Shown: one piece after another, positions 22,503 through 26,871 of the stretch | Numbering within the stretch: position 1 is the first letter of the stretch | How the letters are laid out: every line of letters begins with the position of its first letter | Assembly (NCBI RefSeq): GCF_014204545.1 | Contig: NZ_JACHLJ010000002.1 | Coordinates: forward strand, 496,001-560,000 | DNA: 64,000 bases | Reading direction: 5' to 3' | From: Brevundimonas vesicularis | GTDB taxonomy: Bacteria; Pseudomonadota; Alphaproteobacteria; Caulobacterales; Caulobacteraceae | Program-made: the position numbers and the translations under genes | The notes under the pieces: model-generated | What the model was told of the DNA's origin: nothing | What the model saw: the letters and a program-made list of their open reading frames with translations, nothing else | Database searches by the model: none

Positions 22503-23206
22503 ACGTCACACCAACACGCGTCTGGATCACCCGCGCCGAACCGGGCGCCGCGCGCACCGCCGCCCGTCTGCGCGACATGGGGTTCGAGCCGATCGTCACG
22601 CCCCTGCTGGCGATCAAACACCTGGCCCCGCCGGTTCCCGATCTGGCGTCGTTCGCCGCCTTGGCCTTCACCAGCATCAACGGCGTCGCCGCCTTCGCCC
22701 TCCTGACGCCCCGTCGCGACCTGCCGGTCTTCGCCGTGGGCGATGCGACCGCCCAGGCCGCCCATGACGCGGGGTTCAGAAATGTCCGCTCCGCTTCCGG
22801 CGACCTGCACGCCCTCGCCCGCTTGATCGCCAGCGCCATCTCCAACGCCGCCGTCCTGGTCCCTCAGGCCGAAGCCCCCGCCGGCGATTTCACCGCCGCC
22901 CTCACCGCCGCCGGCGCCCGCAATGTGTCGATCCAGTCGCTGACGGTCTATCGCGCCATCGAAATGCCAGCCGCGGCGCCCGCGCTGTTCGACGCCGTTC
23001 TGATCCACTCCCCCCGCGCCGGACAAGCGCTCGCCAAACGTGGTAACGACGCCCTGGCGCACGCGGTCCTCGCCTGCATCTCTCCCGCCGCCGCCGCCCC
23101 GCTCGTCGCGCTCGGCCTGACGCCCGTCATCGCAACATCGCCCGATGAGGCCTCCTTGCTCACGATCTTGAACGCGGCGCTTGGCAAGCGCGATCCGGCC
23201 GTATAA
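22499..23206 (+). CDS. hemD: Uroporphyrinogen-III synthase
   Basis: Cyclises hydroxymethylbilane with inversion of ring D; 235 residues. The sequence is poorly conserved across the family. It shows the usual RVWITRAEPGAARTAARLRDMG start, LAFTSINGVAAFA, a central LVPQAEAPAGDFTAAL and the VYRAIE strand before the second lobe. The ATGA overlap with hemC is the strongest support. Its final codons (GTA TAA) also contain the likely -10 of the tRNA gene that follows. Confidence 0.93.
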   Translation: MNVTPTRVWITRAEPGAARTAARLRDMGFEPIVTPLLAIKHLAPPVPDLASFAALAFTSINGVAAFALLTPRRDLPVFAVGDATAQAAHDAGFRNVRSASGDLHALARLIASAISNAAVLVPQAEAPAGDFTAALTAAGARNVSIQSLTVYRAIEMPAAAPALFDAVLIHSPRAGQALAKRGNDALAHAVLACISPAAAAPLVALGLTPVIATSPDEASLLTILNAALGKRDPAV

Positions 23207-23207
23207 A
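23181..23207 (+). promoter_or_regulatory. Candidate tRNA promoter inside the end of hemD
   Basis: TTGGCA (23181-23186) and TATAAA (23202-23207) with a 15-base spacer, 40 bases before the tRNA. The -10 includes the hemD stop codon. The spacer is short, so confidence is modest. Confidence 0.45.
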
Positions 23208-23247
23208 GACCCCGTCTCGCGCGGACAGCTTCGTCCGTCGCAACCGG

Positions 23248-23323
23248 GCCGCTTTAGCTCAGCCGGTAGAGCACATCATTCGTAATGATGGGGTCAGGTG
23301 TTCGAGTCACCTAAGCGGCACCA
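23248..23323 (+). tRNA. tRNA-Thr (anticodon CGU)
   Basis: Complete cloverleaf of 76 bases. Acceptor GCCGCTT pairs with AAGCGGC. The D arm is GCTC/GAGC, the anticodon stem CATCA/TGATG with loop TTCGTAA (anticodon CGT at 23281-23283), and the T arm AGGTG/CACCT with loop TTCGAGT. The discriminator is A and CCA is encoded. It reads ACG threonine codons. Confidence 0.97.
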
Positions 23324-23494
23324 CTTCCCCGAGCGCGGTTCGCGCGGGAGGCGGCGTCTGGAGCGCCGAAATATATCCTCAAGGTTGAATCGTCACCTGT
23401 GGCGCACGTAGCAATCCCTAGCTGAGCAGCTTTGGCTTGACGGGATTGGTGTTTTGGGGCCATGGCGCCGCATTATCTATGCCCGCAGGCTGAC

Positions 23495-23848
23495 ATGAAC
23501 GACGCAGTTGATCCCGTAGACATCGCCATCGGCGGACGCATCCGCACCCGTCGTGAGGAACTGCGCATCACCCAGGCGCAGTTGGCCGCCGGCGCTGGCG
23601 TGACCTTCCAGCAGATTCAGAAGTATGAGCGGGGCGTGAACCGCGTCTCGGCCGCCCGCCTGCTGCAGATCGCCTCGGTGCTGAAATCGACCGGCGCGGC
23701 CCTGCTGGGCGAACTGGAAACGGCCGAGGGCGACGAGCTGGCTTTGGCTGCCCCCGGCGTCGCCGAACTGCTGGCGGCCTTCCGCGGCATCAAGGACGCC
23801 GCTCAACGCGACGCCCTTCTGACCGTGGCCAAGGGCCTGCGCGGCTGA
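23495..23848 (+). CDS. XRE-family helix-turn-helix regulator
   Basis: DNA-binding protein of 117 residues. A Cro/C1-type HTH (about 12-68) reads IGGRIRTRREELRITQAQLA and VTFQQIQKYERGVNRVSAARLLQIASVL. The VTFQQIQKYERG recognition region is that of a well-known alphaproteobacterial XRE group. The C-terminal part is short and helical. In other Caulobacterales I recall this regulator directly upstream of metK; here 1.8 kb of minus-strand genes separate the two. Start at 23495 follows the family; an ATG at 23462 would add 11 residues. The target is unknown. Confidence 0.88.
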   Translation: MNDAVDPVDIAIGGRIRTRREELRITQAQLAAGAGVTFQQIQKYERGVNRVSAARLLQIASVLKSTGAALLGELETAEGDELALAAPGVAELLAAFRGIKDAAQRDALLTVAKGLRG

Positions 23849-24217
23849 TCAGGCCCGGTTGCTGGCGCTTTTCAGCAACTTCTCGACCTCATCGCGATGG
23901 TCGGCTCCGTCGAGAGCCGCGCGTGCCAGCCATGACTGGATGGCGTCCAGCGCACGCGCATCGCGACCGTCCGAGCGGCCGCCGTCGGACAGGCTCTGGC
24001 GGATGATCTCGATCATGCAGACCGCTTCGACGGCCGAGGTCGGGGCGTGATCGAGAAGCGTGGTTTCCGCCGCTTCCATCGGCGCCAAATCCAGTTCGAC
24101 GAGCAGATTCTCGCCGCTGGCGGACAGCGATGACGATCCGACCTGTTTCGCCAGATTGGCCGTTTCCAGCCACGAGCGGAAAAGCGGCATGAAGGCGGGG
24201 GTGGTTTGGGTGTTCAT
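23849..24217 (-). CDS. Hypothetical protein, last gene of the LuxR-TM cassette
   Basis: Predicted soluble, mostly helical protein of 122 residues that I do not recognise. It starts MNTQTTPAFMPLFRSWLETA, has a central LLVELDLAPMEAAETTLL, and ends acidic-basic. There is no signal peptide or membrane helix. It lies five bases after the membrane protein gene of the cassette and its stop abuts the stop of the XRE gene. Function unknown. Confidence 0.7.
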   Translation of the reverse strand: MNTQTTPAFMPLFRSWLETANLAKQVGSSSLSASGENLLVELDLAPMEAAETTLLDHAPTSAVEAVCMIEIIRQSLSDGGRSDGRDARALDAIQSWLARAALDGADHRDEVEKLLKSASNRA

Positions 24218-24222
24218 GACAT

Positions 24223-24696
24223 TCAGACTTTCTGTAGCGCCCGGATCGATCCGGGCGCTGACTTGGGACGGGCGTAGGGGGCGCACTGGGCCTCCCAGAC
24301 GCCGAAGAGGGCGAGAAGCAGGAGCTCGAACCAGACGACCATTCGGGTCGATACGATCGACCACAGCAGAGCGTCGGAACCGGCGATGCCGGCCAGATGG
24401 GTCGAAACCGCGATGAGCTGGGCGCCGGCGGCTAGAAGCAGCCACCATCGGTCGTAACGGAGCGCCAGACCGACCAGCAGACAGAACATGGACACCGACA
24501 GGATCGCCACCCCCCACCGGAAATGCCCGATGAACAGGTGATCGACCAATGGCGTGCCCCAGTTGAGGACGAACAGTGCGACCAGGGCGATCCGCTCTGG
24601 CATACGACCCTTCCAGAGCAAAAGCGCCATGACGCCGTAGGTCAGGCACATCAGAAACAAGGACAGCGGCGACCCCATTCCGACGGTCGCGATCAA
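24223..24696 (-). CDS. Small polytopic membrane protein of the LuxR-TM cassette
   Basis: Membrane protein of 157 residues with about five helices (roughly 9-28, 35-52, 61-78, 82-103, 112-133) and a short soluble tail. I recognise no family. A TTG start overlaps the stop of the preceding gene (TTGA); ATG at 24678 is the alternative and gives 151 residues. The tail is encoded by a 24-bp perfect palindrome (24236-24259). By eye the gene is less GC-rich than its surroundings, though I did not compute this. Confidence 0.72.
   Translation of the reverse strand: MIATVGMGSPLSLFLMCLTYGVMALLLWKGRMPERIALVALFVLNWGTPLVDHLFIGHFRWGVAILSVSMFCLLVGLALRYDRWWLLLAAGAQLIAVSTHLAGIAGSDALLWSIVSTRMVVWFELLLLALFGVWEAQCAPYARPKSAPGSIRALQKV
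24236..24259. repeat. 24-bp perfect palindrome with a 16-bp core repeated elsewhere
   Basis: The half-site is AGCGCCCGGATC and the other half is its exact complement. The core CCCGGATCGATCCGGG (24240-24255) recurs exactly at 55680-55695 and with one change at 9338-9353. It lies inside the end of a coding region. Confidence 0.8.
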
Positions 24697-25031
24697 GCGG
24701 CGACGGCGAGAACCGGGGCGAACCCAGTGGGTTTGACAGTCTTGTCTTCGTGCGCCCCGTCCATATACCAGCCGACCTGATGGTCGTCGGCGACCTGGGC
24801 CAGTTCGCAGTGACTGGCGATCACGGCGCTACGAACCTCGGCCAGTTGGCTTAGGCCGCGCACCATATTGGCCAAGGCTTCCTGTCCGACTTCGGCCGCC
24901 AGACGCGCCTCGACCCGACCTTCCAACGCGGTCTGAACCAAGCGGCTGACTTCGATCATCGCCTGATCGACGGCGTATTCTGCGGTTCTGACCTGCCGCG
25001 CCACGCGGACGCCGACGTGCATGTTCTTCAT
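24693..25031 (-). CDS. Hypothetical protein of the LuxR-TM cassette
   Basis: Soluble helical protein of 112 residues. It begins MKNMHVGVRVARQVRTAEYAVD and has a long amphipathic stretch to about residue 70, then a glycine/tryptophan segment VGWYMDG. I do not recognise the family. The start has a GGAAGG ribosome site a short distance upstream. It is the second gene of the cassette, 27 bases after the LuxR-type gene, and its stop overlaps the TTG start of the membrane protein. Function unknown. Confidence 0.72.
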   Translation of the reverse strand: MKNMHVGVRVARQVRTAEYAVDQAMIEVSRLVQTALEGRVEARLAAEVGQEALANMVRGLSQLAEVRSAVIASHCELAQVADDHQVGWYMDGAHEDKTVKPTGFAPVLAVAA

Positions 25032-25058
25032 TGGCTCACCTTCCTTTAAGCCGTTTGG

Positions 25059-25505
25059 TCAGCGCATTTCAGCGGGAGCAAGCCGGTCGAAAAGGGATGG
25101 AACCACCATGCCCGCCGTCACGATCCCGATGGCGAACACAAGGGCGATGGCGGCCCCGGCGACGATGATCCCCACTCTCGCCAGAGCGCCCCGAGGAGGC
25201 GCAGGCAGAAGCCAGGAAGTCGTTGGGTCGGAAACCGCATCGTCCGACTGTTCGGCCGACGTGGGATCATTGAGCGTATGGAGGCCGGTGTCGGGAATGA
25301 GTATCGACGCCTCTGAGTAGCCAATACTCAGTCGCCGGGCCGCCAGCTTGCGGTCCGAAACGCCCAGCTTGGCGTAGGCGCGATGCAGATGGTTGCCGAC
25401 CGTGCGTGGCGAGATGCGCAGGCGCGCAGCGATTTCCTTGTCCTCCAGACCTTGGCCGGCCAGGCGGACGCATTCGCTCTCTCTCGTCGTCAGGCCGTCT
25501 CGCAT
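25059..25505 (-). CDS. Membrane-tethered LuxR-type transcriptional regulator
   Basis: Regulator of 148 residues with an unusual order. A LuxR/GerE helix-turn-helix is at the N-terminus (residues 4-60, LTTRESECVRLAGQ and EIAARLRISPRTVGNHLHRAY), followed by a linker and one hydrophobic helix (111-134) near the C-terminus. The DNA-binding domain would sit in the cytoplasm, held to the inner membrane. Sphingomonads and relatives have small LuxR-TM proteins of this shape, but their signal is not known. It heads a four-gene minus-strand cassette with a small membrane protein and two soluble unknowns. It has a strong AAGGGGG ribosome site before ATG. Confidence 0.85.
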   Translation of the reverse strand: MRDGLTTRESECVRLAGQGLEDKEIAARLRISPRTVGNHLHRAYAKLGVSDRKLAARRLSIGYSEASILIPDTGLHTLNDPTSAEQSDDAVSDPTTSWLLPAPPRGALARVGIIVAGAAIALVFAIGIVTAGMVVPSLFDRLAPAEMR

Positions 25506-25607
25506 GGGAACCCCCTTGGGGCCTGTTTAGCCTAAAATGAGGGGGAGTCAGCCGATATGCTTACGCCGCGAAGCAGTTTCTGCAGGTTGCGCGCCGCGTC
25601 AGATCAC

Positions 25608-25636
25608 TTGAACATATAAGCATATCTTTATATGCC
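25608..25636 (+). promoter_or_regulatory. metK promoter containing a palindromic operator
   Basis: TTGAAC (25608-25613) and TATGCC (25631-25636) have a 17-base spacer; the spacer and -10 are covered by CATATAA-N8-TTATATG (25613-25634), a 22-bp palindrome. A nested hairpin GCATAT/ATATGC (25620-25635) lies within it, and ATATGCTTA at 25555-25563 is a further complementary copy. A repressor bound here would block RNA polymerase. SahR-type (SAH-sensing, ArsR family) or the nearby XRE protein are candidates. Confidence 0.55.
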
Positions 25637-25657
25637 TGTCGGTCTGACACTGACAGG
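25635..25657 (+). promoter_or_regulatory. Hairpin over the metK ribosome-binding site
   Basis: CCTGTC (25635-25640) pairs with GACAGG (25652-25657). The right arm includes the first bases of the AGGAG ribosome site (25655-25659), six bases before the TTG start. The left arm would be at the very start of the predicted transcript. Confidence 0.35.
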
Positions 25658-25665
25658 AGCCTCTC

Positions 25666-26871
25666 TTGGCCGCTCGTTCTTCCTTCCTCTTCACCTCGGA
25701 AAGCGTTTCCGAAGGCCACCCCGACAAGGTCGCGGACCGCATCTCGGACACCGTCGTGGACGCCTTCCTGGCCAAGGATCCCGAGGCGCGCGTGGCGTGC
25801 GAGACCTTGGTGACGACTCAGCGCATCGTGTTGGCCGGCGAGGTTCGCGCCACCCAGCCGGGCAACACCAAAGAACAGAACGAAGCCTTCACCCAGAGCA
25901 TCATCGACAGCCTGGAGCCGCTGGTCCGCGCCGCGGTCAAGGACATCGGCTATGAGCAGGAGGGCTTCCACTGGGAGACGGCGGACTATTCCTGCTTCCT
26001 GCACGCCCAGTCGGCCGACATCGCCGTCGGCGTCGACTCGACCACCGAGAAGGACGAGGGCGCGGGCGATCAGGGCATCATGTTCGGCTATGCGTCGAAC
26101 GAGACGCCCGAGCTGATGCCGGCCACCCTGCAGTACAGCCACAACATCCTGAAGCGCCTGGCCGAGGTTCGTCACGCCGGCGGCTCGCAGCTTGAGCCCG
26201 ACGCCAAGAGCCAGGTCACGATCGAATACGAGGACGGCAAGCCGGTCCGCGCCACCTCGATCGTCCTGTCGACCCAGCACGCCAAGGGTCTGAGCTCCGA
26301 ACAGGTCGCCGAGATCGTCAAACCCTATATCCTCGAAGTGCTGCCGGAAGGCTTCACCGACGAGAACACCGTCTGGCACATCAACCCGACCGGCATCTTC
26401 GAGATCGGCGGACCGGACGGCGACGCCGGCCTGACCGGCCGTAAGATCATCGTCGACACCTACGGCGGCGCGGCGCCCCACGGCGGCGGCGCCTTCTCGG
26501 GCAAGGACCCGACCAAGGTGGACCGTTCGGCCGCCTACGCCTGCCGCTATCTGGCCAAGAACGTCGTCGCCGCCGGCCTGGCCGACCGCTGCACGATCCA
26601 GATCTCCTACGCCATCGGCGTGGCCAAGCCCCAGTCGATCCACGTCGATCTGCACGGCACCGGCAAGATTTCCGAAGCGGTGTTGGAAGACAAGATTCTG
26701 GACCTGATCGGCGGCGCCACGCCGCGTGCGATCCGCCAGCACCTGGGCCTGAACAAGCCCATCTATGCCCGCACGACCGCCTATGGCCATTTCGGCCGCG
26801 AGCCGGATGCGGACGGCGGTTTCAGCTGGGAAAAGACTGATCTGGTCGATCAGCTGAAGGCCTTGGCCTAG
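25666..26871 (+). CDS. metK: S-adenosylmethionine synthetase
   Basis: Makes SAM from methionine and ATP; 401 residues, cytoplasmic. It begins [22 protein letters not shown], has the ATP-binding motif [12 protein letters not shown] and the phosphate loop [19 protein letters not shown]. The length is normal for alphaproteobacteria. The start is TTG with a good AGGAG site, a combination that lowers translation and suits tight control. The promoter carries a palindromic operator. It converges with the pentapeptide-repeat gene, whose stop is four bases away. Confidence 0.97.

Follow-up and report, generated by a model that had tools for sequence, protein, structure and literature searches.

Gene content of the cassette at the metK locus

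In a 64,000-nucleotide stretch of the Brevundimonas vesicularis genome (contig NZ_JACHLJ010000002.1; hereafter the window), positions 23849-25505 hold four minus-strand genes, designated here A, B, C and D, with a gene for an XRE-type helix-turn-helix (HTH) regulator on one side and metK on the other. All four open reading frames (ORFs) of this cassette are present as a first-pass annotation of the bare sequence had claimed, and they are unlikely to be chance ORFs, since orthologous cassettes occur in related genomes. Gene A (25059-25505, minus strand) encodes a LuxR/GerE HTH protein of 148 residues with one predicted C-terminal transmembrane helix, gene B (24693-25031, minus strand) a 112-residue helical hairpin protein of a family without a name, gene C (24223-24678, minus strand, probable ATG start at 24678) a five-helix membrane protein of an equally unnamed family, and gene D (23849-24217, minus strand) a soluble protein of 122 residues with a DGRSDGxDxRAL motif. 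The XRE gene, putatively of the CdxA/PraR type, lies at 23495-23848 on the plus strand (an ORF start at 23462 is also possible), and its stop codon abuts that of the convergent gene D with zero spacer. The right flank is formed by the plus-strand ORF 25666-26871, which we take to be metK, for S-adenosylmethionine synthetase, as it is labelled in the first-pass annotation; a metK match at E 1e-50 is found in 57 of 61 related genomes. A palindromic element without strand assignment occupies 25613-25634 in the metK leader.

The spacings of 27 bases between A and B and of 5 bases between C and D had been given correctly. The TTGA overlap claimed for B and C has to be withdrawn, as it requires a C start at TTG 24696; this codon, possible in principle, was rejected as the true start because close orthologues begin at the ATG corresponding to 24678. 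Gene C therefore probably starts at ATG 24678, which gives a protein of 151 residues and a gap of 14 bases after B. The guanine-cytosine (GC) content of the cassette, judged lower by eye, is indeed lower (64.0% versus 66.8% for the window), but only slightly so, ranking 39 of 312 windows of equal size, a rank on which a strong compositional signal of recent import was rejected; GC at third codon positions is 0.73-0.82 in A to D versus 0.82-0.89 in eight neighbouring genes. At Rfam gathering scores, a tRNA at 23248-23320 is the only RNA within 23000-26000.

Protein A matches the Pfam GerE domain at residues 4-57 (E 8.2e-14; score 51.4 bits, cut-off 23.5) and carries by hydropathy a C-terminal hydrophobic segment (Kyte-Doolittle value 2.8), a combination that bears out the earlier description of a LuxR regulator with a C-terminal membrane helix, the helix being predicted. 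By the same measure, the segment is found in 64 of the 68 A proteins of the first set of relatives (the exceptions are L062, L074, L143 and L207) and in 29 of 29 from a second bacterial family introduced below, suggesting that A is held in the membrane. Only about 90 residues of A lie outside the HTH, few of them after the hydrophobic segment. No receiver or autoinducer domain was matched in A by Pfam or, above cut-off, by any of the 25 NCBIfam models listed, and the Pfam scan gave no winged-helix (Trans_reg_C) match.

The three partners had been introduced as a 112-residue helical protein, a five-helix membrane protein and a 122-residue soluble protein, none of them recognisable, and both the description and the lack of recognition stand, with the helices of B and C again predicted. 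Pfam at E up to 1 returned no match for B and chance-level matches for C and D (E 0.15 or worse), and in NCBIfam D has none, while the matches of B (E 0.11) and C (E 0.0094) fall far short of the cut-off. None of the tested families covers B, C, D or the additional protein E, which is encoded inside A in sister cassettes and is discussed at the end; a relationship of D to E, or of either to B, was rejected at profile comparison probabilities under 1%. Structure models, each built on six sequences, predict that B is a hairpin of two helices whose tail is of low confidence (predicted local distance difference test score, pLDDT, 67.5) and that C has five long helices followed, close to its end, by a short one (mean pLDDT 76.6). 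Glu18, Asp22 and His74 of B (window numbering) are invariant across the 83 members with less than 80% identity, and a diverse set of nine members, including three from plasmids, keeps them without exception. Conservation in C is greatest at G24 (105/105) and W79 (104/105), followed by H94 (92/105) and Q87 (90/105). Fold comparison for B and C gave no standout, the matches being dominated by designed bundles, channel helices and coiled coils, a result that excludes nothing; a search by sequence for a solved structural relative of B yielded none, the best match having E 0.084.

Recurrence of the A-B-C core

The architecture of the cassette was compared across 123 loci taken from ranked B matches rather than at random (one of them, L241, lacks B), in which 124 B modules were scored after L154 and L155 had been dropped as duplicates of L115 and L121. 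These counts come from profiles iterated on the very ORFs that are counted and from gene calls by a simple script with approximate starts. All 124 modules have gene C after B on the strand of B. Upstream of B, gene A is found in 66 modules and E in 39; D lies downstream in 24, every one of them in the genus of the window. A CdxA-type XRE gene is located within 2 kb of 44 modules, all of which also carry A, and a regulator of the S24 type stands beside 18, leaving 40 modules with none of A, E, D, XRE or S24. Within 2.5 kb of B (612 kb in total), 67 A, 45 XRE and 18 S24 matches were detected, versus none of any kind at those score limits in the remaining 625 kb of the same stretches.

The proposal that the four genes act as one unit does not survive this comparison: A is missing from 58 of 124 modules and D is confined to one genus, and A-B-C-D as an indivisible unit was rejected. 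The occurrence of the partners without the LuxR-membrane gene, which the first-pass annotation had named as evidence against its own reading, is seen in part: B-C lacks that gene in those 58 modules, and C follows B with the LuxR gene upstream in the other 66. With A present in 66 of 124 modules and B-C accompanying an S24 regulator or a kinase elsewhere, A-B-C is a recurring core unit, and the B-C pair is used by other regulators too. Among the 39 loci without A, S24 or XRE, 32 carry a divergent hybrid histidine kinase (for example L141:3011-7208, with 31 further loci), and serC lies downstream in 22; kinase domains were confirmed by Pfam in two such loci. These Caulobacteraceae kinase loci, often next to serC, have the B-C pair in common with the cassette but show no match to the LuxR-membrane protein, the XRE regulator or D.

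A second conserved B-C locus occurs in the genome of the window itself (L058:6466-7843), and the same layout is seen in L063, L068, L073 and L075. Loci of this type consist of two genes that look thioesterase-like by eye, one or two copies of B, one or two of C, and then an S24/LexA-like HTH gene, whose S24 domain was assigned from Pfam.

Such diversity of neighbours is the basis for an alternative reading, in which B-C would be a general sensing pair for many regulators (the LuxR-membrane protein, the S24-type repressor and the hybrid histidine kinase), with A as one output among several. The modules without A, the 18 S24 neighbours, and the kinase and serC positions at 32 and 22 of the 39 loci favour it. 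On the other hand, A is present in 29 of the 30 loci of the second family, so that A-B-C may be the original unit, and C also occurs without a B match, as A-E-C before metK, at 5 of 18 loci of the same genus. This reading, which is compatible with the explanation preferred below rather than excluding it, seems unlikely to be the whole account, though it deserves serious weight. The recurrent kinases also invite the idea that B is a phosphotransfer protein, whose invariant histidine would take phosphate from the hybrid kinase and then reach the receiver-less A. The invariance of that histidine, together with the glutamate and aspartate, on a predicted hairpin in 83 of 83 members agrees with such a role, as do the kinases adjoining 32 of the 39 loci of one type; however, none of 21 B members gave a match to HPt or HisKA profiles at E 0.1, no receiver was found in A, and the residues around the histidine do not resemble HPt or H-box motifs. 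A phosphotransfer role is accordingly regarded as improbable.

The distribution of the core is both broad and patchy. Among the 61 relatives, B was detected in 35 genomes, C in 31 and D in 18, all within one genus and often in several copies. Across the bacterial family, a B profile finds members in 169 genomes out of 199, representing 18 of the 22 genera. Sampling of the class shows B and C in four of 190 genomes, the same four for both, two belonging to the genus of the window and two to a second family, f17, which is probably sphingomonad-like; with a wider profile, B is found in 50 of 99 genomes and 46 of 94 genera of f17. Of the 30 f17 loci returned, 29 read A-B-C in order, the other (L297) having no A or C match. 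The A-B-C core thus spans two bacterial orders, frequently with several copies per genome, and D was not found beyond the genus of the window among the genomes searched here. Four plasmid records with B were identified (one from Caulobacter, two from Novosphingobium and one from Sphingobium), and profiles detect A, B and C in all four loci; the three annotated loci read HTH, hypothetical (B), hypothetical (C), followed downstream by a second HTH gene, by a JAB-domain gene and then a MarR gene, or by a winged-helix gene. A plasmid search with the C protein of the window gave no match at E 0.01. On the Caulobacter rhizosphaerae plasmid, HTH-B-C-HTH (L266:2434-4246) adjoins conjugation genes, and MarR or winged-helix genes accompany HTH-B-C on the sphingomonad plasmids.

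A small membrane protein combined with HTH genes, in several copies per genome, on four plasmids and patchily at the metK slot, might also be expected of a defence or toxin-antitoxin module in which C is a membrane effector, A and XRE are repressors, and B and D are antidotes. Against such a role, PADLOC-DB at E 0.01 matched none of B, C and D (A and XRE were matched through their HTH alone), neither B nor C matches any phage searched, for which reason a phage origin was also rejected, B is found in most of the family (169 of 199 genomes; 18 of 22 genera), and the position beside kinase and serC is recurrent. We consider this explanation very improbable.

The XRE neighbour, the metK slot and a proposed signalling unit

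The flanking XRE protein matches HTH_3 at E 2e-12 and has matches in phages vB_BgoS-Bajun, PBC5 and Atu_ph08, which are named for the CdxA-type group in PMC10688885. Its putative assignment to the CdxA/PraR type is based on these matches, on HTH_3 and on locus. An XRE HTH gene of about 120 residues stands directly before metK in the cassette-free genomes G035, G047 and G049, and cdxA (CCNA_00049) has, according to PMC10688885, a neighbourhood conserved across Alphaproteobacteria and is probably ancestral. The flanking gene therefore appears to occupy the cdxA place, the equation of that place with the metK locus being drawn from the bare loci.

That the cassette was inserted into a conserved XRE-metK pair, as had been suggested, gains support from the pair standing bare in G035, a member of the genus, and in G047 and G049, outgroups from two other families of the order; XRE and metK coordinates are adjacent in G045 and G052 as well. 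Because the pair is bare in those three genomes, the cassette probably entered it; among metK genes from beyond the cassette group, that of G035 comes closest (88% identity). The metK leader, including the palindrome at 25613-25634, is similar in G035 and the window, which places the cassette between the end of the XRE gene and that leader; the palindrome, kept in the bare G035 locus, marks the metK-side edge of the insertion. It reads CATATAAAGATATGCTTATATG, hardly varies between G035 and the orthologous loci in the alignment, and is perhaps an operator of metK.

By coordinates, the four genes occupy the metK slot in 9 of 37 genomes of the genus, and they are absent from all 18 other metK loci of the genus examined. 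The tally leaves out 10 of the 37 genomes, three of which have no metK match, and the L243 locus extends only 1.6 kb upstream. Those 18 loci comprise one bare XRE-metK pair, five with A-E-C before metK, and 12 with no match to cassette genes or XRE. In the five (L244, L245, L247, L253 and L257; for example L245:4804-7184, in another genome of the genus), A, E and one or two copies of C lie directly 5' of metK with no XRE or B match. Insertion is the simplest reading of the XRE-cassette-metK order, and the slot has clearly been altered more than once.

The XRE gene, treated earlier as a mere flank, may belong with the cassette, as relatives of it accompany 44 of 124 modules, yet 43 of the 61 XRE matches listed lie elsewhere. 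Linkage is observed at several places, since metK loci account for 17 of the 44 XRE-linked modules and other sites for 27. A tree was built from 37 XRE proteins, omitting 10 of the 15 XREs of metK cassettes and all XREs under 100 bits. In it, the XREs from metK loci with a cassette form a group with the copy from the bare G035 locus (support 99/95), and those beside other cassettes spread over several groups, a pattern that would fit repeated pairing of the module with XREs. An opposing explanation is that of a neutral passenger, that is, an operon inserted beside the XRE gene by chance and bearing no relation to it. The grouping with the cassette-free G035 copy implies that the XRE gene predates the cassette, the 43 XRE matches that do not adjoin B or C point the same way, and 12 of the 18 other metK loci of the genus have neither XRE nor cassette. 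Chance insertion would, however, have to account for 27 of 44 XRE-linked modules lying away from metK, with XREs of several tree groups, and for the fact that no XRE of at least 70 bits occurs beyond 2.5 kb of B in the stretches examined; we hold it to be quite improbable.

Our preferred reading, to which a probability of roughly 0.45 is given, is that the cassette specifies a one-component regulator anchored in the membrane, which has sensing partners and is coupled to the XRE regulators that control attachment and phage and gene transfer agent (GTA) genes. The evidence for the coupling is gene order. In topology, A would present a LuxR-type DNA-binding head to the cytoplasm and be anchored to the inner membrane by its single C-terminal helix. 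C would be a five-helix membrane partner in complex with it, most simply a sensor or a clamp holding A. B would act as a cytoplasmic hairpin adaptor that, through its invariant Glu-Asp-His set, relays a signal from C to DNA-binding proteins, and D might be a genus-specific accessory protein. Sensing at the membrane and action on DNA would thus be united in one cassette, which may work with the neighbouring CdxA/PraR-type XRE, either controlling it or sharing its targets. A role in attachment, phage and GTA biology is suggested by what is reported for the XRE group. In PMC10688885, the Caulobacter regulators CdxA, RtrA, RtrB and CdxB are described as controlling the formation of the holdfast, the burst size of phages and gene transfer agents; these four and the phage protein TgrL repress hfiA and gafYZ, and deletion of host XRE genes reduces phage burst size. 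The same paper names SpdR and RtrC as known transcriptional controls of the group, states that much remains to be learned about the control of its activity and allows for undiscovered anti-repressors. For the orthologue PraR, two further papers report antagonism by the small protein CinS in Rhizobium (PMC4149787) and inhibition of DNA binding by 2-oxoglutarate in Azorhizobium (PMC5527310). A module lying beside CdxA-type XRE genes at several loci would therefore be a candidate for a missing input to those regulators.

Several observations weigh against this reading. PMC10688885 also considers that XREs of the CdxA group may be constitutively active, with transcription as the sole control. The 17 XRE-linked modules at metK belong to related genomes and are not independent, 22 of the 66 modules with A have no XRE inside 2 kb, and B-C dispenses with A in the 58 modules noted above. 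Of the 61 XRE matches listed in the 61 relatives, 18 adjoin B or C and 43 do not; in the window's own genome, one of the five XRE matches listed stands beside a cassette. The XRE tree has many long branches and leaves 12 of its 34 inner forks open; in it, the bare XREs of the two outgroups group with the XREs of Caulobacter-type cassettes rather than with that of the window. Finally, sequence upstream of A shows no enrichment of the PraR box CAAC-N5-GTTG (3.7 versus 4.6 per kb overall), and a PraR box at that position was rejected.

Known one-component regulators offer a partial parallel. ToxR/ToxS, TcpP/TcpH and CadC are built around a DNA-binding protein with a single membrane helix and a neighbouring gene for a membrane partner, and ToxR and CadC have a winged-helix (Trans_reg_C) head and a periplasmic sensor domain. 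The cassette resembles them in the predicted membrane helix of its DNA-binding protein, but A has a GerE head and almost no periplasmic part after the helix, its membrane partner has five helices, and the units examined also contain B, a third protein, which is soluble. The plan would be that of ToxR/ToxS and TcpP/TcpH without the winged-helix head or the periplasmic domain. With LuxR/FixJ response regulators and LuxR solos, A shares the GerE domain, carrying a C-terminal membrane helix in place of a receiver or autoinducer domain. The relation to CdxA, RtrA, RtrB and CdxB of Caulobacter and to PraR of Rhizobium and Azorhizobium would lie in the flanking XRE, the cassette proteins themselves not being XRE proteins. 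In a survey of transmembrane regulators (PMC10269533), 'GerE' and 'LuxR' are not mentioned, and 'LuxR' has no occurrence in three Caulobacter XRE and holdfast papers. Among the open-access papers listed, titles and the openings of abstracts name no LuxR-membrane protein with B or C, although the neighbourhoods in S1 and S2 Figs of PMC10688885 may show them. The repertoire of transmembrane regulators would be broadened by LuxR proteins that are held in the membrane and have constant partner families.

Nested gene E in sister cassettes

In 37 of the 39 loci with E, this gene of about 80-120 residues is read in the +1 frame from within A, in the stretch that separates the head from the membrane helix, and in the remaining two the A frame is interrupted; the type II cassette at L124:4415-5122 is one example, with 36 further loci. 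When the synonymous codons of E were redrawn, the average number of loci whose A frame stayed stop-free was 11.6 of 39 (variance 6.9) versus the 37 observed, a comparison that yields no strict probability since the 39 loci are kin. Substitution rates in 32 close pairs, which share members, were 0.059, 0.036 and 0.303 at codon positions 1, 2 and 3 of the A frame in the head region, 0.151, 0.095 and 0.235 at those of the E frame in the overlap region, and 0.146, 0.071 and 0.270 at those of the A frame in the tail region, so that the maximum shifts from the third position of the A frame to that of the E frame and back again. E is probably a conserved dual-coding gene, and the reading-frame switch visible in its substitutions would make it a well-conserved case of bacterial dual coding. 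A counterpart in the window was rejected, as the +1 frame of A contains stops there and a search with the E profile was empty; the linker of the window A is shorter than that of E-bearing A proteins.

A bolder form of the preferred reading would take A-B-C, with D or the nested E, as an undescribed signalling class, in which a LuxR switch tethered to the membrane has its own hairpin adaptor and five-helix sensor. This class would give XREs of the CdxA, RtrA and PraR type their input and so let a signal at the membrane govern attachment, phage production and gene transfer agents, part of it being encoded out of frame in sister cassettes; so extended, the proposal is doubtful. Cassettes of differing type can also stand side by side, two of them adjoining at the metK locus in L062 (4767-8836) and in L074.

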